DNA from: Bacteroidota bacterium
GTDB taxonomy: Bacteria; Bacteroidota; Ignavibacteria; Kryptoniales; JAKASW01
Reading direction: 5' to 3'
Length of the DNA stretch: 64,000 bases
Assembly: GCA_021812985.1 (NCBI GenBank)
Contig: JAKAMG010000004.1
Location: forward strand, 1-64,000
How positions within the stretch are numbered: the stretch's first letter is position 1; each line of letters begins with the position of its first letter. The position numbers and the translations under genes are program-made. The notes beneath the pieces were generated by a model. It was not told the DNA's origin. It was given only the letters and a program-made list of their open reading frames with translations, and did not search any database. Of this stretch, positions 44,625-63,004 are shown piece after piece.

Positions 44625-44800
44625 CCTATTGCTTTCAGTTGAGTGATTGGCGGAGGCTAATTTAACAACGGCGGCTGGCAACTTCAACCACAGTTTCCCT
44701 GAATATCGCCGACAGCCGCAAGCCAAATCCGCGCACGGGTCCGCTTGAACTAAAAACTAAGAGTAGGTAACCTAATGAGACTCAAATGAAGGAGGGTATG

Positions 44801-47800
44801 ATGCGCAAAATGCTGTTTGCCGTTCTTGTTTCCATCACTGCCGTGCTCACGCTGGGAGGGACTCCAGATCAGGGACCGACGGTCAGGTTTTCTCACCCCG
44901 ACATCATCAGCTACGACCATCAAGGATTCATGGTGCATGGGAAGAGGATATTCATCTATTCGGGAAGCTTCCACTATTTCCGATGCGACACGTCCGAATG
45001 GATGGACAGGCTGGAAAAGATCAAGGCTGCGGGATTCAATGCCGTGGAGACTTACATTCCCTGGAATTGGCACGAACGGGAGGAAGGGAAACCCGACTTC
45101 AGAGAGCTTGACAAGTTCCTCAATGACTGCAGTGATATGGGTCTTTACGTCATCGCGAGACCCGGCCCGTATATATGCGCCGAGTGGAACATCGGCGGAT
45201 TTCCCGACTGGCTGGAGGGAAAGCATGTGGGTTTCAGGACAGCTTCCCCTCAGGATATACAGTGGTCCAAATACTGGTACGACGAAGTGCTCCCCGTCAT
45301 ACGCCGCCACCTTATCACCAACGGCGGAAGCGTAATCCTCATGCAGATAGAAAACGAGTATGATTACTTCAGCCTCCCCGACAGCGACAAAAAAGCCTAT
45401 CTGATTTCGCTCTACGAAACCGCGATGAAAAACGGGATAGATGTACCGATCATAACATGCTGGACGAGCCAGTCGCGCGACAACACCGACTCGGTTTTCT
45501 CTCAGGTAATGGACGCCTGCAATTTCTATCCGAGCTGGAATATCGAGAGCACTCTCCCCTCCATCGAAAGACTGAAGAGTGAGGAGCCCGCTTCCCCACC
45601 GATGGTCACGGAGCTCCAGGGAGGTTGGTTCTCGAGCGTCGGCGAAAAGAGCGTGCGAAGAGTCAATGACTTCGGCCCGGACCAGGTCAGCGCGCTTACG
45701 GATTTTGTGATCGCTCATGGCATCAAGGCCCTCAACTATTACATGCTCTACGGAGGAACGAACTTCGGTTACTGGGGTTCGCAGGACAAGACGACAAGCT
45801 ACGATTACACGGCGCCTATCTCAGAGCCGGGGGGGCTCTGGGATAAATACAGGGCAGTGAAGCTCCTCGGAGATTTCATCCGCCTGGAGGGGAAACATCT
45901 CGTCGATTCACGAGAGGTGAAGAATGGGGCGTACAGCGACACGCCCGGCATCGAGACTCTCCTGCGGACAGACGGCACGGCCGGATTTCTCCTCGTCGGC
46001 AACAAGACCGCCAAGACTGTCGTGGCAAACGTCCGCTTCAAGCCTCCGCAAGGTTCGGAGGTGACACTGAAAGTCAAAATGCGTCCGAAGGGGTCGTACC
46101 TCCTCCCCGTCGATCTTCCACTACCCGGCGGAGGTATGCTCCACTATACAAACGTGCCTGTCTCCGCGATATCCGAGCATAACGGCAAGCCGCTCATCAT
46201 CGCGTATGGGAATCCCGGAGATGAAGCTACGATCTACGCGGGCTCGAGCCTCTGCACCGAAGAGATCGGCAGCACAGATAAAATGTACAACTGGGACGGG
46301 CTTTACGTCCTCCTTACAACTTTTGAACGGGCCGCAAGATCGAGGGTGTTTGACACCCCAGCTGGAAAAATCTCGATTGTCTTCGATTCCTATCTCGCGA
46401 CCGAAGGGACAACGGACGGAGGCAACTTGACGGTGAACCTTCAGACGCGGCCAGGCGAGGACCACTTCTCGCTGTTCTCTCATGGAAAGGTTCGTTCGGT
46501 TTCCATCGACGGCAAAAGCGTGGGCGCGCGCGTCGATCCGAGGACACAAATGACTAACTTCTCCCTTAATACACCACCGGCCCGAATACAGAACGTTCAC
46601 ATAGAGGACATCCGCGCTTCAGGAGATGGTGAGGCTCCAGCCGTATCTGACTGGACCAATCTCAAATATGGGGGCGATACACTGGCCCCTCTTGAAAGCG
46701 AAGGCGACGTCACCGCGGGTTATACGGTCTATGAGGGAGAGTTCTCCACGGACACAAGCGGCCTGATCAAAGCTAATTACTATGACAACGACTGGCACTC
46801 CATTCTGGTAGATGGCGAAACCGTCCCCGGTCTGACCGGAAGCGGTGATGAGGATATCTCAAAGACTAGACTCCCCGCGGGGAAACACACTATCGAGATC
46901 ATTTATGAGAACAGAGGCTGGCCAAACGGAGGCAACATGGAGGGGAACAAGGGGCTCAAGTCCATTTCACTTGCGCCGGATGGCGAGATCATGAACGTGG
47001 ACAGTTGGAAACATGCGCCGGCTCCATCCCCTTACCCGGCTGGAAACGTAGATGAGGCGTCTCCAACCTTCAACGACTCAAAATGGGAGTCCGTAAATGT
47101 CGGCCACGGCAACCAGCCCTTCATAATGCAGAACGAAGGATGGTGGTTCAAGACGCGTATCAGGCTGAGCGACGAGTCGATAAGGGAAAATGCCACGCTG
47201 ACGTTCAAAGCCGTCGACGACAATGCACTCGTCTACGTCAACGGAAAACTCGCCGAAGAGCACAAAGGATACGATACGCCATTTACGATTCCGCTCTCAG
47301 AATACGGGATACCGGGAGACAACGTTGTCGCCGTTTACGTGCAGAACCAGGGAGGCGGAGGGGGAATATGGATGCCAGTCGTCTTAAAATGGGGCAGGAG
47401 CCTCAAGATAGATGCGAACCTCAAATTCCACCACTCGCTCCCGGGTCATCTCGCCGGATGGGAGGCAAAGAACCTTGACTCCTCCCGTTGGAAGAGCGCC
47501 CCACACTGGGAGGGCATCAGTTCGGCTGACGGTATAACATGGTACAGAGGCGAGTTCAAAATCCCTTCGAAACCGGGATGGGTAGTTCCGTGGCACCTTC
47601 ACATCGAGTCGACAGGAAGCGGACAGATCTGGATCAACGGGAGACTACTCGGACGGTTCTTCCAGGAAGGGCCGCAGAAAGACTTCTATCTGCCAAACGG
47701 TTGGCTTCAAAACGGAGTGATGAACAGCATCGTATTAGTGCTTAGGGCTGGAGAGAGCGGCGGCAGGCTCCCCGAGATAAGAGATGCCTATATCGCCCCC

Positions 47801-47851
47801 TACGAAGAATACGTGGTGCAAAAGCACACTCTGAAAGTAATTTTAAAATAG
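44801..47851 (+). CDS. Secreted GH35 beta-galactosidase
   Basis: A 1016-residue glycoside hydrolase behind a signal peptide (RKMLFAVLVSITAVLTLGG). The TIM barrel (about 25-350) has the GH35 series GSFHYFRCDTSEWMDRLEK, ETYIPWNWHE and RPGPYICAEWNIGGFP. The acid/base is E186 in QIENEY and the nucleophile E271 in TELQGGW. C-terminal jelly-roll modules follow, one near 735-830 with VYVNGKLAEEHKGYDTPF. It releases beta-galactosyl residues from plant or other glycans. Of three clustered ATGs, the one at 44801 best fits the GGAGGG at 44791. Confidence 0.93.
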   Translation: MRKMLFAVLVSITAVLTLGGTPDQGPTVRFSHPDIISYDHQGFMVHGKRIFIYSGSFHYFRCDTSEWMDRLEKIKAAGFNAVETYIPWNWHEREEGKPDFRELDKFLNDCSDMGLYVIARPGPYICAEWNIGGFPDWLEGKHVGFRTASPQDIQWSKYWYDEVLPVIRRHLITNGGSVILMQIENEYDYFSLPDSDKKAYLISLYETAMKNGIDVPIITCWTSQSRDNTDSVFSQVMDACNFYPSWNIESTLPSIERLKSEEPASPPMVTELQGGWFSSVGEKSVRRVNDFGPDQVSALTDFVIAHGIKALNYYMLYGGTNFGYWGSQDKTTSYDYTAPISEPGGLWDKYRAVKLLGDFIRLEGKHLVDSREVKNGAYSDTPGIETLLRTDGTAGFLLVGNKTAKTVVANVRFKPPQGSEVTLKVKMRPKGSYLLPVDLPLPGGGMLHYTNVPVSAISEHNGKPLIIAYGNPGDEATIYAGSSLCTEEIGSTDKMYNWDGLYVLLTTFERAARSRVFDTPAGKISIVFDSYLATEGTTDGGNLTVNLQTRPGEDHFSLFSHGKVRSVSIDGKSVGARVDPRTQMTNFSLNTPPARIQNVHIEDIRASGDGEAPAVSDWTNLKYGGDTLAPLESEGDVTAGYTVYEGEFSTDTSGLIKANYYDNDWHSILVDGETVPGLTGSGDEDISKTRLPAGKHTIEIIYENRGWPNGGNMEGNKGLKSISLAPDGEIMNVDSWKHAPAPSPYPAGNVDEASPTFNDSKWESVNVGHGNQPFIMQNEGWWFKTRIRLSDESIRENATLTFKAVDDNALVYVNGKLAEEHKGYDTPFTIPLSEYGIPGDNVVAVYVQNQGGGGGIWMPVVLKWGRSLKIDANLKFHHSLPGHLAGWEAKNLDSSRWKSAPHWEGISSADGITWYRGEFKIPSKPGWVVPWHLHIESTGSGQIWINGRLLGRFFQEGPQKDFYLPNGWLQNGVMNSIVLVLRAGESGGRLPEIRDAYIAPYEEYVVQKHTLKVILK

Positions 47852-47861
47852 CAGGTCGGGC

Positions 47862-47887
47862 GCCCGCGGGACTATTCTCCCGCGGGC
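47862..47887. terminator. GC-rich hairpin between convergent GH35 and YwiC genes
   Basis: GCCCGCGGGA-CTATTC-TCCCGCGGGC is a perfect 10-bp stem in the 46-nt gap between convergent stops. No T-tract follows on either strand. Its place suggests a shared bidirectional 3' end. Confidence 0.6.
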
Positions 47888-47897
47888 GGCTAACCCG

Positions 47898-48680
47898 TCA
47901 CCTTAGAAACACGCCAATCACCGCCAGGAATAGGAGCGATTGAAACACCAGCACTACACCGAGCCGCGTGAAACTGACTTTCTGTTCATGTGAAAGAGCG
48001 CCCAAAATAACCTGAAGTACCACCGGCACGAAGGCCGCGAGTAGCCAGGGGTTGATCACCCCGTAAAGAGCGGCCGCGGCGAGGACTGCAACCAGAACCG
48101 AGTGATAGACTATCATCATCGCCAGCGCCTTTCCCGCCTCACCGCTCCATCCGCCTTTGCTCCGGATGGATTCTATTTTTAGCTTCACGTAGAACACGCT
48201 GCTGCCAAAGAAGAGGATGTTGAGGCTGTAGAGAAGCAGGGCTTTCTCATCGAGACTCCCCGTTATTGTGTAATATCCGGCGGGTGCCGTTAGCGTCAGA
48301 GCCGCGACGGTGACAAGTTCGCTGACGAACGAGCGCTGGTCCCTGGCAAGAAACGACCTGATGCTGAATGCGAAAAGGATTCCTTCAATCGCGGCGAAGA
48401 CGAGGAGCCATGGAAGGTTGGCTAAGAAAACAATTCCCGCCCCTGCGAGAAGTCCAGGAACCGCTAAGGCCAGAAGGAGTAAAACGTCTCTCCTCCGCGG
48501 CACGCTTCTCCTCTTCAACATCGTGACCACCGGATGGTGTACAACGTAGAGGAGCGTAAAGCTTATGAAGAGGACCGCGAAAGCGGCTGAGAAGCGGGTG
48601 ACCAGAGCCGAAGACAGCATCGGTACGATCCACATCGCCCACGCACCATGCTCTCTTGGTATAAGCTCGTGTGCCTTCAT
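47898..48680 (-). CDS. YwiC-like integral membrane protein
   Basis: A 260-residue protein with about eight membrane helices and the family start ELIPREHGAWAMWIVP, typical of YwiC-like proteins. In Bacillus, ywiC lies near the anaerobic narK-fnr region, but its function is unknown. The start overlaps the hemerythrin stop as ATGA. It is the last gene of the rrf2-FeS-hemerythrin-ywiC operon. Confidence 0.85.
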   Translation of the reverse strand: MKAHELIPREHGAWAMWIVPMLSSALVTRFSAAFAVLFISFTLLYVVHHPVVTMLKRRSVPRRRDVLLLLALAVPGLLAGAGIVFLANLPWLLVFAAIEGILFAFSIRSFLARDQRSFVSELVTVAALTLTAPAGYYTITGSLDEKALLLYSLNILFFGSSVFYVKLKIESIRSKGGWSGEAGKALAMMIVYHSVLVAVLAAAALYGVINPWLLAAFVPVVLQVILGALSHEQKVSFTRLGVVLVFQSLLFLAVIGVFLR

Positions 48681-49165
48681 AGCACGAACGGCTTCCTGGA
48701 AGCGAACTTGACCTTCAGGATGTCCAACTGGGCTGCGGACAGGACCTCGCTCGCCTTCGGGAATATGTCCGCCTCTTCTCTCGAGAAGTGAGCATTCAGC
48801 TCCGTACTGAGTTCGGTGAGAAGCTCCAGCGCATCCGACTCCTTCCTTCCCTTCGTATGGTCGGTGAGCCCGTCATACGATCCGAGGAAGCGGCTATGTT
48901 CATGCCTCAGCTCGTCGAACCTTTCGTCGGCCGGTTCGGACAGGAGTGGAAAGAGGAACCGCTCTTCGGCCTCCTGGTGATACTCCAGGAAGCGGAGGAG
49001 TTTTGCGACCCTCGCGTCGAAATCCCGTCCATCATGCCTGAGGAGATCGGCCAACGAGAGCAGACTGCTGGTTTCCTTTTTGATAATTGCGTGCTCCAAT
49101 GTCAGGACATCCATGGGTTGCGATCGCGACCCGAGAGGAATACCGTACGGCCTTTCAAAATCCAT
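48677..49165 (-). CDS. Hemerythrin-domain protein
   Basis: A 162-residue four-helix protein with the diiron ligand pattern: H25 (TLEHAII), H63 and E67 (EYHQEAEERF), H88/H90 (LRHEHSRF), H126 and E130 (NAHFSREEADIFP). The family binds oxygen or NO, or repairs damaged iron-sulfur clusters (RIC/YtfE-like) in nitrosative stress. It overlaps the 4Fe-4S gene by 11 nt and ywiC by 4 nt. The ATG at 49165 may be too early; a Met at residue 18 just precedes the domain. Confidence 0.88.
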   Translation of the reverse strand: MDFERPYGIPLGSRSQPMDVLTLEHAIIKKETSSLLSLADLLRHDGRDFDARVAKLLRFLEYHQEAEERFLFPLLSEPADERFDELRHEHSRFLGSYDGLTDHTKGRKESDALELLTELSTELNAHFSREEADIFPKASEVLSAAQLDILKVKFASRKPFVL

Positions 49166-50246
49166 GGTTTATCGCTCCGATGTTCCTGAAGAGTGCGAGA
49201 TACTCTGCAGGTGAAATAGAATTCTGCCACAACCCTGCCAGGACAGCCACGCCGACAATGCCGAAGTAAACGCCGATGAGAAGGAGGGCGTAGTTGCGCT
49301 GAGATATCCCCTCCCGTCCCGAGGTCACAGACATGTTGAGCGTGTTCCTGACGGGACATGCTTCCACGCAAGAATAGCATGCCGTACACTCCACAGAGTT
49401 CACCGCCTCCAGCCTGTCGACCGGAAGAGCGGATGGGCAGGCCGTCGCGCATTTCCCGCAATCGATGCAGTTCGATTCGACGCGGCGTATCTTCATCGGG
49501 CTCACGAGGCTCGTTATACCGAGGAGGGCTCCGTAGGGGCACGCGTAACGACACCAAAAATTCTTGTAGAACAGCGAAAGAAAAATCAGCGCGCCAATGA
49601 CGATTAATGAGAAGGTCGATATATGCGCGAAGAAGAGATACATTTTTATGTCGGCAGCCTTGTTATAATCGGAACGGATGAATGAACCGAGCTCGTCCGC
49701 GGACATCATGGATACGGCCAGAAGGAAGAACGCCAGAAGGAAATACTTCAGCGAGCGCAGCGGTATGTCTATCCACCTGGGCAAATTGAAATTTCTCCCA
49801 ACCACCTTCGCTCCGAACTGGTAGAGGGATTCCGAGATGTAACCAACGGGGCATATCCAGCTGCAAAATCCCTTCTTCATGAAAGTGGAAATCAGGAGGA
49901 CGGCGACAAAGATGAAAAAGCCGGATGGATGAACATGATTAACAATTCCGGTAAGGATGAAATACCTGAAGCTCATGAGCGCGCTTATCGGAAGGAAGCC
50001 CTCTACGCCGGGAGGCCTCTGCATCGCTACTCCATTCTCCAGTCCCGACACAAACCTGTAAAAGTCGATCCCGATCCATACAACGAGGAGAAGGAAGAAG
50101 GGCTGGACATAACTTCGCGCGTTCGATCTTTCTCTCCTTACGAGACTGCGGTCCGTGAGTTTCTTTACACGCCTCCCGTCCGGGAGGGTGACGATCTGCA
50201 CTGGCGCATCCATTGTTTCGGATGAATTTGTCCTGTTTATATCCAT
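49155..50246 (-). CDS. Membrane 4Fe-4S protein, NapH/NosR-like
   Basis: A 363-residue polytopic iron-sulfur protein. Membrane helices lie near 48-66, 92-122, 166-184 and 206-226, with one more near 320-340. Two CxxxCP motifs (C128/C132 and C232/C236) are the hallmark of NapH/NosR/CcoG-type quinol dehydrogenases. Two ferredoxin clusters follow: C260, C263, C266, C270 and C287, C290, C293, C297. Family members pass electrons from quinol to periplasmic acceptors. The start lies 5 nt after the rrf2 stop. No nap or nos structural gene is in the window. Confidence 0.88.
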   Translation of the reverse strand: MDINRTNSSETMDAPVQIVTLPDGRRVKKLTDRSLVRRERSNARSYVQPFFLLLVVWIGIDFYRFVSGLENGVAMQRPPGVEGFLPISALMSFRYFILTGIVNHVHPSGFFIFVAVLLISTFMKKGFCSWICPVGYISESLYQFGAKVVGRNFNLPRWIDIPLRSLKYFLLAFFLLAVSMMSADELGSFIRSDYNKAADIKMYLFFAHISTFSLIVIGALIFLSLFYKNFWCRYACPYGALLGITSLVSPMKIRRVESNCIDCGKCATACPSALPVDRLEAVNSVECTACYSCVEACPVRNTLNMSVTSGREGISQRNYALLLIGVYFGIVGVAVLAGLWQNSISPAEYLALFRNIGAINHGF

Positions 50247-50251
50247 GGAAA

Positions 50252-50701
50252 TTATCTTATGCCAAGTTTTGTTCTGAGCTGCCTGCTGTCCTTGATCTCC
50301 CTGGCAACATCAGCGATAGTCTTCTTCGCAATCATCTGATATACCCGGTCGCGGAGCGGACCCCACTCGTTGTGCATCGGGCACGGATTCCTCCCGGAGC
50401 ACTCGGGGAAACCGAGGACACAGGACGTCAGGAAATCAGTCCCGTCGATCGCATCCACCACATGGAATAGCGCCACCTCGTCAGGCGCCTTCGCAAGCCT
50501 GAATCCGCCTTTCGGTCCTTTCTGCGACTGGAGAATCTTCGCCTGAACCAGAAGCTGGAACGTCTTGCCGAGAAAGGGCATCGGAATGCCGAGCCGATCA
50601 CTTATCTCTATAATATTCGTGTAGCTCTCGTGCGGCTGAGCTGCCATATATAGGATTCCCTGGAGAGCGTACTCGCACTGCCGGCTAAATATTAGAGACA
50701 T
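50252..50701 (-). CDS. Rrf2-family iron-sulfur transcriptional regulator
   Basis: A 149-residue winged-helix regulator. The HTH is near 28-50 and the wing is GPKGGFRLAK (62-71). Three cysteines C94, C101 and C107 (spacing C-x6-C-x5-C) could hold an Fe-S cluster as in IscR or NsrR. It probably represses its own operon (FeS-hemerythrin-ywiC) and responds to NO, oxygen or redox state. That output is consistent with NsrR-like regulation but not proven, since IscR-type and NsrR-type members cannot be separated by eye. Confidence 0.87.
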   Translation of the reverse strand: MSLIFSRQCEYALQGILYMAAQPHESYTNIIEISDRLGIPMPFLGKTFQLLVQAKILQSQKGPKGGFRLAKAPDEVALFHVVDAIDGTDFLTSCVLGFPECSGRNPCPMHNEWGPLRDRVYQMIAKKTIADVAREIKDSRQLRTKLGIR

Positions 50702-50921
50702 ATATCAGACCTTTCTATCTGAAATATAGCCCGGGGTGCAACCGAAGTCAAGCGATGATTCCTCCCCATGGCGGGCCTAAACGCGGCGCCCCACTCCGGG
50801 AAGGACAGGAACGCTTTGATCGGAAAGTCCCTCTGTTCCACCTCCGAACTCCCCTTTTTGTTGTAACTCAGGGGAAGAAGCGTTAAAGTACCACCAATAG
50901 GAAAAACAAGAAAATCGGGAA

Positions 50922-51539
50922 ATGCTGGCGGAAGAGATATCCGTTCCAAAACCTCTGGGTGTCGGGGAGGCTGCGCAGATTTGTCGGGTGACCACCCGCA
51001 CGATCAACTACTGGATCAAAGCCGGGAAGTTGAAGGCATACACAACCCCGGGGGGGCATTTCAGGATTTGGCCAAACGACCTGAGAGACTTTCTGAAGGC
51101 TTACAACATGAATATGAGTTCTGAATTGGGGAAAGAGCGTCGCAGGAAGGTTTTAATAATCGAGAGCGACGAGGCGTACTCGGATATGATGCGAAACATC
51201 CTTCTTGATAAATTTGACGACTGCGAGTTCCATAATAGTCACGACGGCTACGAGGCCCTGATTATCCTCGGAGACCTGAAGCCGGATCTCGTCGTGCTCG
51301 ACCTGACGATGCCCGGCGTCGATGGGTTCAGGATGCTTGAACTCATATCCGATCGCAGCGCGGTTCACCCCCTGAAGATCCTGGTCCTCTCAGGAAGTTC
51401 ATCCAGTGCCACAGTCGAAAGACTCAGAAGGTCCCGGGTCAATCGATGGCTTACCAAACCGGTTTCCACCGCGGAGCTCATCCATTCCGTTCAGAACCTC
51501 CTCACGAAGGAAGACAGAAACGGAGGGACACCTACTTGA
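50922..51539 (+). CDS. Excisionase/MerR-type HTH fused to a response-regulator receiver
   Basis: A 205-residue protein with the domains in unusual order. An N-terminal HTH_17-like domain (10-60: PLGVGEAAQICRVTTRTINY, AYTTPGGHFRIWPNDLRDFL) resembles BldC and excisionases. The receiver domain (about 75-197) has phospho-acceptor D127 in VVLDLTMPG, the conserved Thr/Ser step LVLSGSS and Lys in WLTKPVS. The acidic pocket reads ESDE, so one of the usual paired Asp is Ser. The hybrid kinase starts inside its stop codon (TTGA), so the pair is almost surely one signalling unit. It is divergent from the rrf2 operon. Confidence 0.87.
   Translation: MLAEEISVPKPLGVGEAAQICRVTTRTINYWIKAGKLKAYTTPGGHFRIWPNDLRDFLKAYNMNMSSELGKERRRKVLIIESDEAYSDMMRNILLDKFDDCEFHNSHDGYEALIILGDLKPDLVVLDLTMPGVDGFRMLELISDRSAVHPLKILVLSGSSSSATVERLRRSRVNRWLTKPVSTAELIHSVQNLLTKEDRNGGTPT
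51522..51527 (+). promoter_or_regulatory. Shine-Dalgarno site for the TTG-started hybrid kinase
   Basis: GGAGGG lies 8 nt before the TTG at 51536, whose TTGA overlaps the stop of the response-regulator gene. It argues against the ATG at 51446, which would overlap the upstream gene by 94 nt and has no such site. Confidence 0.75.
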
Positions 51540-54367
51540 TACAGGTCGGTCTCCTCATTTCGGCCTTCGTTTTCTTCACACAGTCTCTTCCAAACCTGAT
51601 CCAGATCCGGAACGCGGTCAAGGCAGTCCCGCGCGCGAAGACGGTCTTCGTCACGGATACCACCGTAAGGGTTACGGGCATCGTGACGCTGTCATCAGCG
51701 AGAACCGATTCATCGCTCCAGACATTTATTCAGGACGGTAGCGGCGGAATAAGACTGTATCAGTACAACTACGGCGGCCCTTCCCTATTTGCCGGTGACA
51801 GCATCACAGCGGTGGGGAAGCTGGCGATCTATTACGGCCAGGAAGAAATTGAAAATCCCGCTATCACGCTTCTCCGTCACGGCGTAAACGTCTCTCCCCT
51901 TACGGCGACCGCGAAAGACATATCCAGCGGCAGACTCCACGGCCTCCTCATCACCTGCGAGGGGAAAATCATAAAGAGGATTCGTCACGGGAGCGGTGTA
52001 ACCTACTCCTTCGTGGACCAGCACAACGACACGGCGACGGCGTTCGCCGACTTCAGCCTTGACCCGCAATTTGAATCGACGCTCGCGAAGGTCGGCGAAT
52101 CATACAGCATGACAGGGGTCTCTACTAGGTATTCATATCGCAGGCCCTACACCGATCACGACGACCTCCTCCTGAGATCTTCTGCAGACATGAGGCCGCT
52201 TGAAGGTGGCTTCCTCAGCAGACACATCGGACTGATGGAACTGATCGCCTCCACCGTCCTCGCAGCGATACTTGCCCTGATATTGATGACGTTCGCGCTC
52301 AGGGGAAAGGTGAGGCAGAAAACAAGTTGGCTCGAAAAGCAGTCTCAGGTATTGAAGATATTCTTCGACGCCGTCGCTGAGCTGACAGGCCTGCTCGACA
52401 AGGAAGCGATACTGACGCTGGCACTTAAGAAGGCACTGGAACTCATCGGCACCAGGTGCGTCATATTCGGCGACTCGGTCTCTTCAGAGTTTGGCTTTCT
52501 TCTGATGTCTTTTGAGCTCAAGGATGGACAACTCTCTACTGATACGCGGCAATTTAATAGGGATGCATCGTCTCCGCTGCTTGGCATGCTTTCGGGGCGG
52601 GACGTTATCTGGGAGACCACGGTAGATAAGGTAATCAAAGACGCGAACGCCTCCAGCGAAGACGCGCTGGCACAATTTCTCGAGACACACATAAAAGATC
52701 GAAGCATTACAATCCTTGGGCCTTCTTTGCCAAAGAGAGACTTCCTGGTGGCATTCGATCATGCAGGCCCGATTCCAAGATACCTCCCGCGCACAATTAT
52801 CATGTCTTACGTGCTGCACGCCTACTCGGCGTACAAGTCTGCCGAGCTCTTCGACGTCGTCAGGGAACAGAGCTCTGCGCTCGAAAGGCTTTACAACAAC
52901 TCCGTGTTCGGCCTGATGACCCTCTCCGTCGACGGTACGATCCAGACTGCCAACAGAATAGCCATGCACATGTTTGACGACGAGGACCTCATGGGGAAGA
53001 AGCTGCAGGGCTTCATGGTTCCCCACGACTCCGGCAGGCTCAACGACCTTCTCTCGAGCCTCTCAGCGGTATATAAGGAAAAATTCGTCAGATTCACCGC
53101 GGGTGTGGAAAACGGACAAGGACAGAGGAGGTTCGAATTTGCTATCCAGTCCGATCCCGCCCTTCAGACATATTACACAACAGTGCAGGATACTGGAGAG
53201 CTCGAGTATTACGAAGACTACGCGACCAATGAAAAGAAGATAGAGACTCTAGGAAGACTAGCCTCATCTCTGACGCACGATTTAAACAACATGGTAGGGA
53301 GCATAACCGGGTACGCCTCGCTTCTCAAGAGGAAGCTTCAAAGGGACACGAAGGAGTACCACTATGCAGACATAATAGAGAGTTCATCCCGCCGTACGAT
53401 AGAGCTTATCAGGGAGGTGCTTGGGTTCGCGCAGCTCGACTCAAAGAGCCTCGACGTCGTCGACTTGAATGAATTCGTGTCTGAGGTGACCGCGGATTTC
53501 AGGAAGACGCTCGGCGACAAGTATTCAATCCTCTTCAAGCCATTCGACAGGCCTCTGCATGTCCGCGTCAGCACCACACAGATAAGACAGGTGCTCTTCT
53601 CCGTACTGACGAACGCAGCCGACGCGATGGAAAATGGCGGCACCATTGTATGCACTACCGGTTCCGCGGGGATGCCAGACTCGGCCCCCGCTCACGTGAT
53701 GCCGGGTGAGTTCAACTTTGTTGAAGTGGAGGACCACGGGGTCGGGATGGACGAGACTATCAGGAGGAGGATATTCGAGCCCTTCTTCACCACGAAGAAA
53801 ATCAAGAAGTACACCGGTCTCAGCCTCAGCATGGCATACAACATCCTCAAGCATCATAAGGGCTTCATTAGTGTTGAGTCGGCAGCGGGAGTCGGCACGA
53901 GGATCAAGATGAACTTTCCGAACTTCGTACAAAGAGCGGAACGTCAATACGATTCCGCCGGTGGAAACCGCGTCAACGCCAGAGGAGCAAAAATCCTCGT
54001 TGCCGACGATGAGGAAGGCGTAAGACAGCTTGCATGCGACATACTCACCGATCATGGCTACGTCGTGGTCACGGCCAACGACGGTCTGCAGGCCATCGAA
54101 CGGCTGGACCAGAACCCAGACGTCAAGCTTGTGGTGCTGGACATGCTCATGCCTGGTATGGGGGGAAGAGACGCATGCGTGGAGATCAAGAAAAGACCTG
54201 GCGCTCCGAAGGTACTCATCTGTACCGGCTACAGCGACCTGGCAGACCTCGAATCTATACTTGGAAAGTATGCCGAGGGTCTGATTCAAAAACCCTACGC
54301 CGCGGGTGACATGGTGAGGGCAGTCGACAACCTGATCAGTTCTTCTCTTAATTCCGCCAACCAATAA
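51536..54367 (+). CDS. Membrane hybrid histidine kinase with exported OB-fold-like sensor
   Basis: A 943-residue protein. An N-terminal membrane segment (about 2-18) leads to an exported region. Its first part (about 37-110: VRVTGIVTLSS, TFIQDGSGGIRLYQ, GDSITAVGKLAIYYG, EIENPAITLL) has the strand order of a bacterial OB fold, followed by a second similar beta unit to about 220. A second membrane helix lies at about 232-252. Inside come a GAF-like region (about 265-440), a PAS domain (about 445-555), the HisKA with H581 in SLTHDLNN, the ATPase domain (GVGMDETIRRRIFEPFFTTKK) and a receiver with D869. It is coupled to the preceding regulator by TTGA. Confidence 0.87.
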   Translation: MIQVGLLISAFVFFTQSLPNLIQIRNAVKAVPRAKTVFVTDTTVRVTGIVTLSSARTDSSLQTFIQDGSGGIRLYQYNYGGPSLFAGDSITAVGKLAIYYGQEEIENPAITLLRHGVNVSPLTATAKDISSGRLHGLLITCEGKIIKRIRHGSGVTYSFVDQHNDTATAFADFSLDPQFESTLAKVGESYSMTGVSTRYSYRRPYTDHDDLLLRSSADMRPLEGGFLSRHIGLMELIASTVLAAILALILMTFALRGKVRQKTSWLEKQSQVLKIFFDAVAELTGLLDKEAILTLALKKALELIGTRCVIFGDSVSSEFGFLLMSFELKDGQLSTDTRQFNRDASSPLLGMLSGRDVIWETTVDKVIKDANASSEDALAQFLETHIKDRSITILGPSLPKRDFLVAFDHAGPIPRYLPRTIIMSYVLHAYSAYKSAELFDVVREQSSALERLYNNSVFGLMTLSVDGTIQTANRIAMHMFDDEDLMGKKLQGFMVPHDSGRLNDLLSSLSAVYKEKFVRFTAGVENGQGQRRFEFAIQSDPALQTYYTTVQDTGELEYYEDYATNEKKIETLGRLASSLTHDLNNMVGSITGYASLLKRKLQRDTKEYHYADIIESSSRRTIELIREVLGFAQLDSKSLDVVDLNEFVSEVTADFRKTLGDKYSILFKPFDRPLHVRVSTTQIRQVLFSVLTNAADAMENGGTIVCTTGSAGMPDSAPAHVMPGEFNFVEVEDHGVGMDETIRRRIFEPFFTTKKIKKYTGLSLSMAYNILKHHKGFISVESAAGVGTRIKMNFPNFVQRAERQYDSAGGNRVNARGAKILVADDEEGVRQLACDILTDHGYVVVTANDGLQAIERLDQNPDVKLVVLDMLMPGMGGRDACVEIKKRPGAPKVLICTGYSDLADLESILGKYAEGLIQKPYAAGDMVRAVDNLISSSLNSANQ

Positions 54368-54424
54368 ATTCCATGCTTACAGGTCACAAGGCCAATCAAA
54401 CTATCGGCACAACCGCCAAAAAAC

Positions 54425-54447
54425 CGCTTAAAGCAAATTATTAAGCG
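54425..54447. terminator. Possible hairpin after the hybrid kinase
   Basis: CGCTTAA-AGCAAATTA-TTAAGCG is a perfect 7-bp inverted repeat 58 nt after the kinase stop. The following AAATTTTAG is only a poor T-tract, so termination is uncertain and an operator role is possible. Confidence 0.4.
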
Positions 54448-54500
54448 CCAAATTTTAGCTTATTTTGAGTGTCGCAAAACACCAAACAAACTTTGTGTTG

Positions 54501-54531
54501 AAGTCAATTCTTAAGCTTAATTTCTTGACTT
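54501..54531. promoter_or_regulatory. Extended palindrome overlapping a putative nrdJ -35 element
   Basis: AAGTCAA (54501-54507) and TTGACTT (54525-54531) flank the perfect palindrome TTAAGCTTAA (54511-54520). The halves match apart from one extra base on the right. The right arm contains TTGACT, the presumed -35 box. This is the geometry of a repressor site. The sequence does not fit the NrdR box consensus. Confidence 0.5.
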
Positions 54532-54716
54532 TCCCTGAGGTTGAGGATAATTTGCAAACCGACTCTTCGCCGGGTGGAGGGCGAGAGGGAGAACATCATA
54601 GTTGAAGCAGATCGAGCAACCGAGCCGACGTCTTTGCCGCCGCAGCGCGAGCAGGTTCCCACAACCGGCCCCCGGCAGGGACTTAAGGTTCTTCAAGATA
54701 CAAGGGAGGAGTCCTG

Positions 54717-57446
54717 ATGGGTTATACTGATACGTTCGTCTCAGAAGACACCAAGGCACAGTCCAAATGGGGCGGCCTGACAGTGCGCAGGCTATACACG
54801 AGGAAGGGGATCCACCCCTTCGACGAGATCACGTGGGAGAAGCGGGCCGCGACGATCTCCAACGAAAAAGGGGAAATAATATTCCAGCAGAAGGACGTCG
54901 AAGTCCCAGACTTCTGGAGCATGACCGCGACGAACGTCGTTGTGTCGAAATACTTTCACGGTCAGCTTGGCACCCCCGACAGAGAGTCGAGCGTAAAACA
55001 ACTTGTCGACCGGGTTGCCCGCACTTTCACTAAGTGGGGCATCAAGGGAGGATATTTCGCCTCCAGCGAGGACGCGTCGGCATTTTATGACGAATTGGTG
55101 TTCCTCCTTGCAAACCAGTACGTTGCCTTCAACAGCCCCGTTTGGTTCAACGTCGGCATCGAGGACAAGCCACAGTGCTCCGCCTGCTTCATCAACTCCG
55201 TCAAGGACACGATGGAATCGATCCTCGACCTGGCGAAGACCGAGGGAATGCTGTTCAAGTGGGGAAGCGGTACAGGGACTAACTTCTCTAGCCTCCGCTC
55301 CTCGAAGGAGAAATTATCAGGTGGTGGTACAGCTTCTGGTCCCGTGTCATTCCTCCGCGGTTTCGATTCGTTCGCCGGAGTGATCAAATCCGGTGGCAAG
55401 ACGCGCCGCGCCGCGAAGATGGTTATACTGAACGCCGACCATCCCGACATCAGGGAGTTTATCAGAAGCAAGTCAGACGAAGAAAAGAAGGCTTGGGCAT
55501 TGATCGACGCTGGCTACGACCCCGGTTTCAATGTTCCGGGCGGAGCTTACGACTCGGTCCAGTTCCAGAACGCGAACCACAGCGTCAGGGCGACCGACGA
55601 CTTCATGCGCGCCGTGCTGGAAGACAAGGATTGGGCCACGAAGAACGTGAGAGACGGGAAGTCGGCCGAGACCTACCGGGCACGAGAAATCATGCACGAT
55701 ATAGCGGAGTCAGCCTGGATAAGCGGTGACCCCGGAATGCAGTTCCACACGACCATCAACAGCTGGCACACGTCTCCGAACACCGCTCAGATAAACGCCT
55801 CCAACCCGTGCAGCGAGTACATGTTCCTCGACGACAGCGCATGCAACCTCGCTTCCCTGAACCTCATGAAGTATAGGAAGGAGGACGGATCGTTCGACGT
55901 CGAAGGCTTCCGTCATACGGTGGAAGTCACGATAACGGCGCAGGAGATAATCGTCGGAAATGCGAGCTATCCGACCAAATCGATAGAGAAGAACAGTTTC
56001 GCCTTCAGACCGCTCGGCATCGGATACGCCAACCTCGGCGCTCTCCTGATGTCGCTCGGCCATCCCTATGACAGCGAAACCGGAAGAGCGTACGCCGGCG
56101 CAATAACCGCCCTCATGACCGGTGAAGGCTACAGGCAGAGCGCGCTCGTCGCAAAGACCATCGGCCCGTTCGACGGATACGAGATCAACAGGGAGCCGAT
56201 GCTCGGCGTCATCAGGAAGCACAGGGCGCATGTCGACAAGATAGCCACGGAGGCTGTTCCCGAGGATCTCGTCGAATCGGCAAAGACCGTTTGGGACGAC
56301 GCGCTCACAATCGGCAAGGAGTACGGCTACCGCAATTCACAGATTTCAGTCCTCGCGCCCACCGGAACGATCGGGTTCATGATGGACTGCGATACCACCG
56401 GCGTGGAGCCGGACATCGCCCTCGTCAAGTATAAGAAGCTCGTCGGCGGCGGCTACATGAAGATCGTGAATAACACAGTCCCCCTCGCTCTGACAACCCT
56501 CGGCTATTCCAACGAACAGGCGGACGAAATCATAAAGTACATCGATCAGACCGGGACCATCGAAGGCGCTCCCCATCTCAAGGAGAAACACCTCGGAGTG
56601 TTCGACTGCGCGTTCAAGCCGGTCGAGGGATCGCGTTCTATCCATTACATGGGACACATCAAGATGATGGCGGCCGTCCAGCCCTTCCTCTCCGGCGCCA
56701 TTTCCAAGACTGTCAACCTCCCGACCGAAGCGACAATCGAGGACATCGAGCAGGCTTACATCGAGGCCTGGAAGCTCGGCCTTAAAGCCATCGCCGTTTA
56801 CCGCGACGGCTCCAAGAGGACACAACCTCTGAGCACCAAGAAGGACGAAGGGACCAAGAGCGAAAAGACCGCCTCTGCGACACGCGTGAGCCGGCGAAGG
56901 CTACCTGACGAGCGGAACGCCGTGACGCACAAGTTCAGCATCAGCGGCCACGAGGGATACATCACCGTCGGCCTCTACGAGGATGGCACACCAGGCGAAA
57001 TCTTCATAACCATGTCAAAGGAAGGATCGACGATAAGCGGGTTGATGGACGGCTTCGCGACGGGAATCTCCCTCGCCCTGCAGTACGGAGTGCCGCTGAA
57101 GGTTCTCGTCGACAAATTCAGCCATATGCGGTTCGAGCCCTCCGGCTTCACCAACAGCAAGGAAGTGCCGATAGCGAAGTCGGTTCTCGACTATATCTTC
57201 AGGTGGATGGGATTGAAGTTCCTCCCCCGCGGCGAGCAGCCGGCGTCGGTCGTGGTAGACTCGATCGTGGCGGAATCCAAGCCTGAAGTGAAGAGCGAAT
57301 TCAACATAAGCCTGGAACAAACCGAGAAGAAGGTGTTCCAAGAGCAGGCGGACGCACCCCCCTGCCACGAGTGCGGGTCCATCATGATAAGAAGCGGCTC
57401 GTGCTACAAGTGCCTGAACTGCGGATCGACGAGCGGATGCTCCTGA
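54717..57446 (+). CDS. nrdJ: Adenosylcobalamin-dependent (class II) ribonucleotide reductase
   Basis: A 909-residue vitamin B12-dependent reductase making dNTPs without oxygen need. Family segments are FNSPVWFNVG near 137-146, KWGSGTGTNFSSLRSS near 182-195, NPCSEYMFLDDSACNLASLNL near 363-383 (read in parts) and APTGTIGFMMDCDTTG near 545-560. It closes with a TSCPD domain (about 735-850) and the C-terminal zinc-ribbon cysteines CHECG, CYKCLNCG, GCS. There is no N-terminal ATP-cone, so dATP inhibition of that type should be missing. GGGAGGAG lies 6-7 nt before the ATG. Confidence 0.95.
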   Translation: MGYTDTFVSEDTKAQSKWGGLTVRRLYTRKGIHPFDEITWEKRAATISNEKGEIIFQQKDVEVPDFWSMTATNVVVSKYFHGQLGTPDRESSVKQLVDRVARTFTKWGIKGGYFASSEDASAFYDELVFLLANQYVAFNSPVWFNVGIEDKPQCSACFINSVKDTMESILDLAKTEGMLFKWGSGTGTNFSSLRSSKEKLSGGGTASGPVSFLRGFDSFAGVIKSGGKTRRAAKMVILNADHPDIREFIRSKSDEEKKAWALIDAGYDPGFNVPGGAYDSVQFQNANHSVRATDDFMRAVLEDKDWATKNVRDGKSAETYRAREIMHDIAESAWISGDPGMQFHTTINSWHTSPNTAQINASNPCSEYMFLDDSACNLASLNLMKYRKEDGSFDVEGFRHTVEVTITAQEIIVGNASYPTKSIEKNSFAFRPLGIGYANLGALLMSLGHPYDSETGRAYAGAITALMTGEGYRQSALVAKTIGPFDGYEINREPMLGVIRKHRAHVDKIATEAVPEDLVESAKTVWDDALTIGKEYGYRNSQISVLAPTGTIGFMMDCDTTGVEPDIALVKYKKLVGGGYMKIVNNTVPLALTTLGYSNEQADEIIKYIDQTGTIEGAPHLKEKHLGVFDCAFKPVEGSRSIHYMGHIKMMAAVQPFLSGAISKTVNLPTEATIEDIEQAYIEAWKLGLKAIAVYRDGSKRTQPLSTKKDEGTKSEKTASATRVSRRRLPDERNAVTHKFSISGHEGYITVGLYEDGTPGEIFITMSKEGSTISGLMDGFATGISLALQYGVPLKVLVDKFSHMRFEPSGFTNSKEVPIAKSVLDYIFRWMGLKFLPRGEQPASVVVDSIVAESKPEVKSEFNISLEQTEKKVFQEQADAPPCHECGSIMIRSGSCYKCLNCGSTSGCS

Positions 57447-57467
57447 TTCGAGGGCTTTTCTAACACA

Positions 57468-57501
57468 AAGCCGTTCGGGTTCTGCCCGGACGGCTTTTTT
57501 T
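57468..57501 (+). terminator. Intrinsic terminator after nrdJ
   Basis: AAGCCGTTCGGG pairs with CCCGGACGGCTT (one G-T pair) around the loop TTCTG, followed by a run of T. It lies 22 nt after the nrdJ stop. Confidence 0.92.
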
Positions 57502-57533
57502 ATTATCTGAGCAGAAGTAAACTTGGAGCGAAA

Positions 57534-58094
57534 ATGTATTTCGCATATCTCATCGCATTTCTTATGCTATTCGGTAATACGCAGAATCACGCGGGCAAGT
57601 CGCCGTGCACGCAAGTGAAGATTGTGAATCGCCTGGTGACGTGGGGGTACAAGAAGGTCAGCCGGCCGCGAAAGATCGAAGCGATTATAATTCATTCTTC
57701 GTACAACGCGCTGACGCCCGACTCGTTCAGCGTTGCCGAAATTCTTCGCGAGTACCGAGGGATCGATGTAAGTCCGCATTACATAATCGACAGGAGCGGA
57801 ACGATATTCAGGCTCGTTCCCGAAAGGGACATCGCCTATCACGCCGGTAAAAGCAGACTCCCCGACGGGACGACAAACGTCAACGCTGTTTCAATCGGAA
57901 TAGAAATCGTAAACACGATCCGTGATACTCCGACCGATGCACAGTACGAATCCCTCGTCTCACTTGTGAAATGCTTGAAGGAAAGGTATGCTATAAAATA
58001 CGTGCTGGGCCACAGCGACATCGCCCCCGGAAGAAAAACGGATCCGTGGAATTTCGACTGGAAAAGGTTCCAAGCGATGATCGAAGAGAAGTGA
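57534..58094 (+). CDS. N-acetylmuramoyl-L-alanine amidase (Amidase_2)
   Basis: A 186-residue exported amidase of the PGRP/T7-lysozyme type. A hydrophobic N-terminus (YFAYLIAFLMLFG) is a likely signal. Zinc ligands are H54 (IIIHSSYNA), H160 (LGHSDIAPGRKTDP) and D170, with HYIIDRSGTIFRLV and YHAGKS between them. It cuts the amide between MurNAc and the stem peptide, in recycling or cell separation. It follows the nrdJ terminator and so is transcribed separately. Confidence 0.9.
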   Translation: MYFAYLIAFLMLFGNTQNHAGKSPCTQVKIVNRLVTWGYKKVSRPRKIEAIIIHSSYNALTPDSFSVAEILREYRGIDVSPHYIIDRSGTIFRLVPERDIAYHAGKSRLPDGTTNVNAVSIGIEIVNTIRDTPTDAQYESLVSLVKCLKERYAIKYVLGHSDIAPGRKTDPWNFDWKRFQAMIEEK

Positions 58095-58234
58095 CGGATT
58101 ATTTGGGATTGGACGGTTGAATTGATCGGGAAAAGCGCGCCATCATCTGTTACCGAATTATCACCTTCAGACAGCGAGAAGTCCTGAAGACTCACCGTCC
58201 TCAGGACTTCCAAATCAATGAGCTTGACAATCGG

Positions 58235-58771
58235 CTATTTAACTACAATCATTCGCCTGACCTGCACGAAGTCTCCCGCACTCAAACGTTAAATATAAAC
58301 GCCGCTCGAGACGTTGCCCGCGTCCCACGACACAGAATGGTATCCTGCATCCATATCTTCATCAGCAAGCCTTGAGATTTCTCTGCCGAGCATATCATAC
58401 ACCACGAGTCTTACATGCGCCGGCTTCGACAAACCGAACCAGATCTGTGTCGAAGGATTGAATGGATTGGGATAATTCTGATAGAGCGAGTTACTCACTG
58501 GAGCCATTGTTACGACGGCAGCGCTGCCGGGATCAGTTGAAACGTCGGGTTCAATGGATCCATAATGAACCGTCTTTCTTGCAGAAACATTTTCACCCGT
58601 GCCATTGTCATGTACGTCGCAACGCAAAGATGTCTTCAGTCTCAGTTTCTTAAATCTTATTTCACAAAGACAATAAGCCCTCGCTGGAACAATTGTCCTT
58701 AGTAATGATTCTCCTTGCCGGTGGAATATAAAAGGGGATTGCCCGCGAGGGCGCTTTTATCTAAAAATCAT
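58235..58771 (-). pseudogene. Decayed gene for a secreted protein with C-terminal sorting domain
   Basis: The 3' part encodes a sorting domain typical of type IX-secreted FCB proteins (LYQNYPNPFNPSTQIWFGLS, then VYDMLGREISRL). It is cut by an in-frame TAA after NVSSGVYI (58289); beyond it the frame continues with the expected ending RLSAGDFVQVRRMIVVK to a TAG at 58235. At the 5' side a perfect Shine-Dalgarno (AAAGGAGGTGA, complement of 58778-58788) and ATG (58771) lead only into four codons and a stop. I read this as a gene that lost its middle and then its end. The body is missing, so the original function is unknown. Confidence 0.7.
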
Positions 58772-58807
58772 GATGTCTCACCTCCTTTCATTCAATTGTC
58801 AATCGTT

Positions 58808-60106
58808 TCAATCATTAAACGTGAATTGTGTTTCCGTTTTAGAATCGACATCGATCATCCACAAGACGCCATTTGCCAGCGTCCAATCTTTGGCGGAATA
58901 ACGTGTATAAATAATTTCCTTTCCGTCGGGTGACCAGCTGAAGTCAACATCTGCGTAATGAGTCGTCAATTGTCTCTGGTTGCTACCGCTCGAATCCATT
59001 AACCACAAGTTACCATCTGACCAAAAGGCGATCTTTTTTCCATCCGGCGAATAAATTAAATTGCGGTTATCGCTTCCTACTCCCAATAGCGTATCCACAA
59101 TTTCACCCCGCGCGATGTCGTAGAGTATAAACCGAGTTCCTGCGGTTATCGAGCTAATGCCGATGATCCCGACGAGAATATTTCCATTGGGAGACCAGCT
59201 TGGAAAGCTGCCTCCAAATAGTGCTCGCTTTGAGCTGCCATCAATCTTCATACGCCATATTCCGGCAGGGCCACTTGCGTCAGGGAGAGACCGATCATAT
59301 GCTATCCACTTTCCATCTGGACTCCATGCAGGGAAGAATCCTCCAGATGTTGTCAGCTGAACCAGCGTTCCAGTATCGAATCCGTTGCCTGTAAATCTCA
59401 TTTTGCATATCTGACCTGTCGATACGAAAGCGATCCACTGTCCATCAGGCGACCATGCAGGATACTCTAACGTGCTCGGGAAGATTCTCCTCATGTTTGT
59501 CCCGTCAGAATTGATCAGCCAAAAGCCTGTTTCGTTATCTTTGAACTCTTGCTCCGGATAACATGGACTTATGTAATTAATCTGCGTCAATGGAGCATGA
59601 TTGATCCCTATAATTTTTTCACTTGGATGCCATATCGGGCTGTTGTATGGGGATCCGGGTACAACACCCAAGTCGAATCCGTCGCAGTTGCCGTAGTCAG
59701 TCCAATAGTCGTAAATCCTGAATGAGAGTCGACTTACGCTTCGATCAAAGTTGATTCCTACCACCATAGTATCCTGTACGTTCAACGTAGTATCTATCCG
59801 AACTGCGAGGCTTGGGATCGATACGTCGATTCGATGACTCCCGGCTGACAATGCCGGAATGATTCGAAATGCGAGTCCAATCGAAGTGCCTGCCGTTACC
59901 GATCTTTCGTCGAGGATTTGATTATCTACCTCGACAACAACGCTATCACCCTGAAAACCGTTTTGCAGATCGATTGCGAACGCAGCGTATTCCGGCTTGG
60001 AATTGTCTATCGACTGGGTGGGATGCTGGCAGCCGCAGATTGAGAATATCTGCGAAGAGATGGCAGCAACAGTTGCTATGAAGAAGAGGAATAATCTCTT
60101 GCGCAT
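58808..60106 (-). CDS. TolB-like beta-propeller lipoprotein (paralog A)
   Basis: A 432-residue lipoprotein with lipobox ICGC (C26). After a PEGA-like beta domain (about 35-130: AFAIDLQNGFQGDSVVVEVDN) come WD40-like/PD40 repeats of the type 'PAWSPDGKWIAY' (WSPDGQWIAF, WSPDGKWIAY, YSPDGKKIAF, WSPDGKEIIY). Such propellers bind proteins in the periplasm or at the outer membrane. ATG 60106 gives the signal sequence. It sits 16 nt after paralog B on the same strand. No enzyme motif is present. Confidence 0.85.
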   Translation of the reverse strand: MRKRLFLFFIATVAAISSQIFSICGCQHPTQSIDNSKPEYAAFAIDLQNGFQGDSVVVEVDNQILDERSVTAGTSIGLAFRIIPALSAGSHRIDVSIPSLAVRIDTTLNVQDTMVVGINFDRSVSRLSFRIYDYWTDYGNCDGFDLGVVPGSPYNSPIWHPSEKIIGINHAPLTQINYISPCYPEQEFKDNETGFWLINSDGTNMRRIFPSTLEYPAWSPDGQWIAFVSTGQICKMRFTGNGFDTGTLVQLTTSGGFFPAWSPDGKWIAYDRSLPDASGPAGIWRMKIDGSSKRALFGGSFPSWSPNGNILVGIIGISSITAGTRFILYDIARGEIVDTLLGVGSDNRNLIYSPDGKKIAFWSDGNLWLMDSSGSNQRQLTTHYADVDFSWSPDGKEIIYTRYSAKDWTLANGVLWMIDVDSKTETQFTFND

Positions 60107-60122
60107 GTAGAATCGCTTCCTT

Positions 60123-61334
60123 TCAATACGATAGTGGATGATTTTGGCTCCCATCGTTTCGGATGAGCCATAATCCTCCAAACGATGTATCAGAATTAGT
60201 ATACACTATCCAATCTCCCGTAGGAGACCAATCGCAGGAGTACCCTTGTATTCTCGTAAGCTGCTTAAGATTTGCTCCGTCTGGCGAATAGCGAGGCAGG
60301 CGGTTATCCCGTGCATAGGGGTTAACTTGATTGAAGGAGGTTAACCGAGTCACTTGGGAAGTGTCGAATAGGTTTATAAGATATATTTCAGACCGAAGTC
60401 CTATATATACAAGAAAGTCACCGTCCGTTGTCCAATCAGGCATTCTTCCTCTTGCAATGAATCTTCTATCTGTCCCTTCATTTCGAACGATCAGGATACC
60501 GCACGAATTTGGCGGAGAAGGCTCAAGTGCACTTCCACAATCCGTATTGTCATACGCGATCCATATGCCATCTGGGCTCCAAGCAGGGAAGAAATTGCGT
60601 CCTTCAGATGTCAATTGAGTCAACCCTGTGCCGTCGACTCTTATCTTGTAAATTTGGGCGTTGCAGGAAAACGCTATCCACTTGTTGTCAGGAGACCATG
60701 CTGGGCTGTAGGCACCTGGGTTGGAATAAAGGATACGTTTGTTCTTCCCATTAGCATCAACAAGCCAAATCCCTGTTTGTCCATTGATTGTATCGCCGTG
60801 CACGTATGCAATCGTATTTCCGTCCGGGGACCAGGCTGGTTCAAAATCCGTCAAGCGGAAATTCCATGGACAATCGATACATGGAGTTTCACCGGCGCCG
60901 TACGTCAGCCATGTTGTATCGACGCTCAAAGAAAGCTGGCTCTTGCTTCGATCAAAGCTAATCCCGACCACCAAAACATCCGGCACAATCAATAATGTGG
61001 TATCTGTCTGAACCGCAAGACTGGGAATCGATACATCAATCTGATGCGTGCCGGCAGAAATCGCAGGAACCAATCGGAAAGCAAAACCATTCGAAAGGTT
61101 TGTCGTTGTAGCCCTTTCATAGAGGATTTGATTATCCACTTTGACAACGACTGTATCCCCTTGAAATCCCTTCTGGAGATCTACTGCGAATGCGGCGTAT
61201 TCGGGCTTCGGGTAATCAATTGGTTCGGTGGGGTGGATACATCCGGAGATGCAAAGCACGAACAATGACGTCGATGTCATCGAGGATAAAAGAAACACTG
61301 AATTCCTCTTCTTCGCTCCCCTGTTCGCCTCCAT
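60123..61334 (-). CDS. TolB-like beta-propeller lipoprotein (paralog B)
   Basis: A 403-residue lipoprotein, lipobox CISGC (C32), with the same plan as paralog A. The first 110 mature residues are nearly the same (PEYAAFAVDLQKGFQGDTVVVKVDNQIL), while the propeller blades have diverged (WSPDGNTIAYV, WSPDNKWIAFS, WSPDGIWIAYD, WSPTGDWIVYT). The pair arose by tandem duplication. Some blades are lost or degenerate in comparison with A. It is likely cotranscribed with A and displayed on the same membrane face. Confidence 0.85.
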   Translation of the reverse strand: MEANRGAKKRNSVFLLSSMTSTSLFVLCISGCIHPTEPIDYPKPEYAAFAVDLQKGFQGDTVVVKVDNQILYERATTTNLSNGFAFRLVPAISAGTHQIDVSIPSLAVQTDTTLLIVPDVLVVGISFDRSKSQLSLSVDTTWLTYGAGETPCIDCPWNFRLTDFEPAWSPDGNTIAYVHGDTINGQTGIWLVDANGKNKRILYSNPGAYSPAWSPDNKWIAFSCNAQIYKIRVDGTGLTQLTSEGRNFFPAWSPDGIWIAYDNTDCGSALEPSPPNSCGILIVRNEGTDRRFIARGRMPDWTTDGDFLVYIGLRSEIYLINLFDTSQVTRLTSFNQVNPYARDNRLPRYSPDGANLKQLTRIQGYSCDWSPTGDWIVYTNSDTSFGGLWLIRNDGSQNHPLSY

Positions 61335-61582
61335 GACTCCCCAATCTAGTCCGTACCCTGCAAGTTGTCAAGCGTTAAGACCCAGACTGAAATGACAGAC
61401 TAGTTTTCGTCGCGCAATTTCCTGATTCTTCTTTCCGCTCTGAAACGATCCGGATCACGCGCCATCCTCTAAAAGGTAAGCCCCGTCAAACCTTAATCAG
61501 GAAGAGTCCTAGTGCACACGCGAATGAGGTATATGATGGAACGAAGTAACGATCAGATACCGGACCGACTCCAGCCGCGTGA

Positions 61583-62215: not shown

Positions 62216-62294
62216 TTGACCAGATCTTTCCGGATAACCATTAATTACTTTTCGTTGAATCGATTGAACTCATTGTTTAGCTTAGCGGCAGAAC

Positions 62295-62990: not shown

Positions 62991-63004
62991 AACCGAACTA
63001 CACA

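Follow-up and report, generated by a model that had tools for sequence, protein, structure and literature searches.

Most extracytoplasmic sensors of histidine kinases are assigned to the Cache, PAS, four-helix or periplasmic-binding types. Here we describe a hybrid histidine kinase whose exported part is predicted to consist of two consecutive OB barrels, encoded in a stretch of 64,000 nucleotides from a Bacteroidota bacterium (contig JAKAMG010000004.1 of assembly GCA_021812985.1, positions 1 to 64,000), which is called the window below. Among described systems, the exported DUF5689 (PF18942) proteins share with it a region of about 200 amino acids with two OB-like units (hhalign E 1.2e-9). 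In those proteins the region goes with a PLD-type domain and a secretion tail, whereas the window sensor is followed by a transmembrane helix and a kinase. The ExeM/NucH nucleases (NF033681; YhcR-like two-OB region) are likewise exported and have two putative OB units (PMC6085458), but the window kinase lacks a nuclease domain and the ExeM/NucH profile misses its sensor. CckA-like hybrid kinases have the same HDxNN-box kinase core, HATPase and C-terminal receiver, and among the NCBIfam equivalogs it is the CckA models that score highest, albeit far below their cut-off (205.6 vs 1000 bits); unlike CckA, the window kinase has an exported OB pair between hydrophobic segments and an adjoining gene for a response regulator with a helix-turn-helix (HTH) domain. 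An envelope OB fold that acts on a histidine kinase is found in the NlpE-CpxA system (PMC2954213), but there it resides in a separate lipoprotein and the sensor of CpxA is reported to be a PAS domain (PMC11078701).

We consider it likely that the window protein is a hybrid histidine kinase of the inner membrane and that it receives its periplasmic input through an OB-barrel pair homologous to the tandem OB (DUF5689-like) region of secreted proteins, several of which are nuclease-like. The basis is computed and predicted: the order of the domains, the pair of barrels, the conservation of the phospho-acceptor histidine, the overlapping regulator gene and the homologies of the OB pair. The input module of this kinase appears to be undescribed, while the kinase core is ordinary. 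Among the matches listed in the open-licence literature, judged by title and the start of the abstract, there was no description of an OB-fold kinase sensor.

The preliminary description of this DNA had proposed an OB fold and a second similar unit between the membrane helices, and had named structure prediction and fold comparison of the exported part as the check. Both were carried out. Residues 19-228 were modelled with AlphaFold2 (model m7599b74cb615) from an alignment of eight sequences, i.e. the window protein and orthologs from seven metagenome-assembled genomes (one Candidatus Kryptoniota, six Bacteroidetes). The result was two consecutive OB barrels (pLDDT 81, pTM 0.80), as proposed. 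The first barrel superposes on LysRS 6kcn_C (VIA Z 12.4, 101 residues, 2.3 A) and on the RPA domain 3e0e (VIA Z 11.7, 85 residues, 2.0 A), the second on residues 1-99 of TtNRS 5zg8 (VIA Z 12.8, 95 residues, 2.6 A); the matched regions are the OB domains of these proteins. The end of the second barrel is in part of low confidence (pLDDT <50 at model residues 183-189 and 207-210). Each half of the sensor is thereby predicted to be an OB barrel that can be superposed on solved OB domains. The best Foldseek rows for the pair as a whole are the HIN-200 DNA sensors (E 2.3e-6), Teb1 and Pot1, i.e. tandem-OB nucleic-acid binders. Since the Foldseek TM-scores are only about 0.34-0.42, we do not claim that the mutual arrangement of the barrels is the same as in these proteins.

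The reading frame of the kinase (943 amino acids plus stop) confirms the coordinates given in the preliminary description (Table 1). Its TTG start has a GGAGGG 8 nt upstream and overlaps the TGA of the response regulator gene in front of it. A longer reading from ATG 51446 exists; in four of the seven orthologs TTG is the first possible start at the matching place. HisKA, HATPase_c and the receiver, which had all been claimed, score above their Pfam cut-offs, and H581 is invariant in the eight aligned rows; D869 of the receiver was placed from the position of VVLDM. With a HisKA domain that carries the phospho-acceptor histidine, a HATPase_c and a C-terminal receiver, the protein is by its sequence a hybrid histidine kinase. 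Of the GAF and PAS parts that had also been claimed, the PAS part was confirmed. The PAS region superposes on ARNT PAS-B 4pky_D (VIA Z 15.3, 96 residues, 1.7 A) and PAS_4 is found in all eight family members at E<=1 (best 7.4e-6), the window kinase alone remaining below the Pfam cut-off; a PAS fold between the second transmembrane helix and HisKA is thus supported by the model. No GAF family was matched at E<=1 by any of the eight members, and a GAF identity is only suggested by the GAF-like succession of secondary-structure elements, strands as well as helices, in model m929d3451a74f, which is of modest quality (pLDDT 67). The approximately 210 residues between the hydrophobic segments would be exported if both segments cross or enter the membrane. 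The response regulator matches HTH_17 (E 6.7e-10) and Response_reg (E 2.4e-17) in Pfam, its phospho-acceptor D127 is assigned by position, and its gene lies directly upstream of the kinase in all seven ortholog loci, as seen by eye.

The homology of the OB pair to secreted proteins is seen within the genus: the sensor profile of the window genus aligns with the OB pair of the secreted PLDc_2 protein of locus L041 with an hhalign E of 1.2e-9. PLDc_2 is present in five relatives from the class that lack a kinase, i.e. those of L041, L045, L047 and L051 and the protein at 2083-5436 of L040. A T9SS tail is above the cut-off in four of the five and below it in L045 (20.2 vs 27 bits), LTD passes its cut-off in L045 and L040, stays under it in L041 and is missing from the listed matches of L047 and L051, and the DUF5689 label on the OB pair is above the cut-off in all but the L040 protein. 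DUF5689 without PLDc_2 occurs in L043 (three units) and in a second L040 protein. The proteins at L041 874-4149, L045 1046-4336 and L047 1681-4944, with an OB pair and PLDc_2 in two stretches each, have the appearance of extracellular nucleases that would form a type alongside ExeM. Moreover, the ExeM/NucH profile matches the OB region of two kinase relatives, L055 at 2e-5 and L042 at 7.1e-6, and that of the secreted L082 (4.5e-6), in each case far below the whole-protein cut-off of that model (300 bits); the window sensor itself matches no family at E<=0.1 there. DUF5689 gives 15.8 bits (E 0.013) in the kinase relative L042. When the genomes were searched with this family, the window kinase was not matched; there was one weak match elsewhere in the genome and matches in three of 14 control genomes, two of them above the cut-off. 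We also considered filing the window sensor as DUF5689, and rejected this because it misses the Pfam cut-off.

Outside these exoproteins, a plasmid-borne diguanylate cyclase of the acidobacterium Acidisarcina polymorpha (WP_114211360.1; L090 3384-5390), which was found with a consensus query, has OB units followed by a transmembrane helix. The kinase-family profile aligns with it across this helix (hhalign E 3.5e-13). It differs from the window kinase in its GGDEF output and in a further OB-like stretch upstream, seen by eye. The alignment with an EEP-family protein of Sinorhizobium is weaker (hhalign probability 65, E 6e-5). Taken from such alignments, the OB pair looks like an extracellular module that is shared with nuclease-like exoproteins and is used here as a sensor.

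The sensor was matched at E<=0.01 in 57 of 149 related genomes, the own genome included. Orthologs (E 1.3e-44 or better) are present in seven of the 12 other genomes of the same genus, and the remaining five have weaker matches only; six of the seven are complete in the loci read and the one in L035 runs off its contig. Among 395 genomes drawn from the phylum, 121 have a match at E<=1e-5, and the OB pair together with a transmembrane helix (matches extending past model position 240, counted by hand) occurs at no fewer than 40 places in at least 30 genomes, the window included. Twenty of the 21 places that were checked have a HATPase_c with either HisKA_2 (12) or HisKA (8); the other one, L081, has PAS and GAF and is truncated at the locus end. 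In other words, what these proteins have in common is the OB pair, and the type of kinase differs. Among plasmid records, neither the window sensor nor L068 had a match. The preliminary description had called an OB-fold input to such a kinase unusual, which holds in that it is undescribed in the literature listed but not in that it is rare, since many kinases of the phylum have the same arrangement. With its place in front of kinases of two types and of a diguanylate cyclase, and its presence in nuclease-like secreted proteins, the tandem OB input would add a further class to the known sensors, one that is missed by domain libraries, as no Pfam model reaches the window sensor.

In the mechanism that we propose, an exported ligand or partner would bind the OB pair, and the binding would move the second transmembrane helix and the helical linker. 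In the cytoplasm this input could be combined with that of the PAS (and GAF-like) part and so set the phosphorylation of H581. From there the phosphate would pass to D869 and/or to D127 of the adjacent HTH response regulator, which in its phosphorylated form may change transcription.

Several observations weigh against this interpretation. Ligand-induced signalling is something we infer from the domain order alone. The structure alignment of the sensor had eight sequences, and only two of the five models reached confident values (mean pLDDT 81.0 and 75.2), against 53.5, 47.3 and 44.5 in the other three. In Pfam, the window sensor fails the cut-offs of all OB families, e.g. its N-terminus scores 14.1 bits with PF01336 (tRNA_anti-codon OB) at a gathering cut-off of 27, and with DUF5689 (gathering cut-off 28.6 bits) the window kinase has no match at E<=1. 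A comparison of the sensor profile with PDB sequences reached a best E of 0.017, which is at chance level, the hits being mostly T-cell receptors. Finally, Pfam found no HPt domain in the kinase that could serve as the relay from D869 to the partner regulator.

Other explanations of the input have to be weighed against a ligand-binding OB pair. It is possible, if on balance unlikely, that the pair docks another envelope protein, and that the signal is borne by that protein or enters through the cytoplasmic PAS/GAF-like part, perhaps as redox state or nitrogen oxides. There is a precedent in NlpE, a lipoprotein with a C-terminal OB fold that activates the Cpx kinase pathway by acting on CpxA (PMC2954213). 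The PAS domain of the window kinase would suit this explanation, as would its divergent neighbours, i.e. genes for an Rrf2 regulator, a NapH-like ferredoxin, a hemerythrin protein and YwiC. However, in 11 of 12 HisKA_2 relatives the OB pair belongs to a kinase in which no PAS was matched (at E<=1 or 0.001), so that it probably carries an input by itself.

We are more doubtful about the suggestion that the ligand of the OB pair is nucleic acid outside the cell, or what it is broken down to, and that the kinase senses environmental DNA or nucleotides and controls their use. It is conspicuous that the homologous pair is found in secreted PLDc_2 proteins, one of them (L041) of the same genus, and that the ExeM/NucH profile reaches the OB region of L055, L042 and L082; the first Foldseek rows, moreover, are nucleic-acid-binding tandem OBs. 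Yet PLDc_2 also covers non-nucleases, OB folds bind many things, and the ExeM profile has no match to the window sensor itself. From the literature, the ExeM nuclease is inactive once its two-OB region is removed, which the authors ascribe to 'function and/or stability' (PMC6085458), and in Riemerella anatipestifer a DUF5689 protein (also with DUF5017) is reported to be essential for natural transformation (PMC8459023). The gene downstream of the kinase, nrdJ (B12-dependent ribonucleotide reductase), would fit a nucleotide theme: it is next to the kinase in the window and in those ortholog loci that reach it (six of the seven), with one extra gene between in L037, but it may adjoin by chance. 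With respect to charge, the sensors show no excess of basic residues: the net charge ranges from -3 to +4 across all eight window-genus sensors and from 0 to -15 across 16 aligned membrane-anchored sensors outside this genus. As three PLDc_2-associated OB pairs are acidic too (-6, -11 and -12), charge does not decide on the ligand. The most far-reaching form of the suggestion, a widespread receptor class of histidine kinases and diguanylate cyclases that uses the tandem OB of secreted nucleases as a periplasmic sensor of extracellular nucleic acid or its fragments, appears to us more doubtful still. A phrase on the sensing of extracellular DNA had zero occurrences among the matches listed in the open-licence literature. 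If the suggestion is true, bacteria have a direct, receptor-based sensing of environmental DNA. The sensor described here would offer a concrete and inexpensive test of it.

A gating of the OB pair by calcium is improbable. Twenty membrane-anchored relatives from outside the window genus were checked; in 18 of them, and in the secreted L082, a loop of the form D/N-x-D/N-x-D/N-x-x-x-D, which we take to be EF-hand/TSP3-like and which may bind Ca2+ in these relatives, precedes the first strand of barrel 1, and the motif has no match in the other 4550 residues that the aligned rows contain. L055 and L060 lack the loop, and so do the secreted L002 and, what matters most here, the window protein and all eight rows of its genus, so that calcium gating cannot explain the window protein; L041, L045 and L047 show only a shorter ND..G stretch, by eye. 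That a classical sensor fold (Cache, CHASE or PAS) was misread as OB is very improbable in spite of the eight-sequence alignment and the three less confident models, as the 50 Foldseek and 50 VIA rows shown for the sensor model are OB-containing proteins as far as their titles tell, and as the PF01336 profile exceeds its cut-off in the relative L058 (29.2 bits summed over stretches). Cache, CHASE and PAS were not seen among these rows. An OB-barrel pair that serves as the periplasmic input of the kinase remains our preferred reading.

Table 1. Features of the kinase locus in window coordinates, and loci of relatives with the D-rich loop.
Feature	Residues	Position	Strand	Basis
Partner response regulator: MerR-type HTH (HTH_17), then receiver	205 amino acids	50922..51539	+	Pfam
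Hybrid histidine kinase with tandem OB input	943 amino acids	51536..54367	+	TTG start, ortholog starts, Pfam
N-terminal hydrophobic segment (signal peptide or anchor)	4-22	51545..51601	+	Kyte-Doolittle 19-residue mean 1.66
OB barrel 1 (predicted)	19-122 (model 1-104)	51590..51901	+	predicted structure, VIA
OB barrel 2 (predicted)	123-221 (model 104-210)	51902..52198	+	predicted structure, VIA
Transmembrane helix 2	237-255	52244..52300	+	Kyte-Doolittle mean 2.54
GAF-like region	289-435	52400..52840	+	helix/strand order in model, no profile support
PAS domain	456-553	52901..53194	+	fold comparison and family profile
HisKA dimerisation/phospho-acceptor domain, H581 in HDLNN	572-636	53249..53443	+	Pfam E 4.3e-9
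HATPase_c catalytic domain	681-795	53576..53920	+	Pfam E 3.8e-15
C-terminal receiver (REC), D869	820-930	53993..54325	+	Pfam E 6.8e-21
D-rich loop before OB barrel 1		L042, L056-L059, L061-L065, L068, L071, L073, L074, L078-L082 (L082 secreted)		

Some further features of the proteins were noted in passing. The ATP lid in HATPase_c reads YTGLSLS in the window kinase and in the six orthologs that include the lid, the usual form of the motif being GTGLGLS. The protein at L043 275-2659 has, besides its three DUF5689 units, a T9SS tail.

The regulated process could be either connected with nucleotides or with nitrogen-oxide respiration; of the divergent upstream genes, the NapH-like one is present in six of the seven ortholog loci (by eye). 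The DNA around the kinase contains conserved elements as well. About 95 nt upstream of nrdJ (54478-54572) are strongly conserved in the six genomes aligned and include the inverted repeats ACACCAAAC...GTTTGTGTT and AAGTCAA...TTGACTT, after which a TTGACT-17-TAATTT pair can be seen by eye that is absent from the promoter scan list. We considered this element as a target of the response regulator; a genome search for the first repeat (allowing up to three mismatches) and a window search for the second gave a single occurrence each, so that the element was not found at the regulator's own gene and nothing speaks for this idea. Rfam gave nothing at gathering scores in 44000-64000. An operator-like stretch, GACATATATCAGAC-TTTCTATCTGAAAT, is located at the start of the divergent Rrf2 gene (50690-50735) and is conserved in the five genomes aligned.

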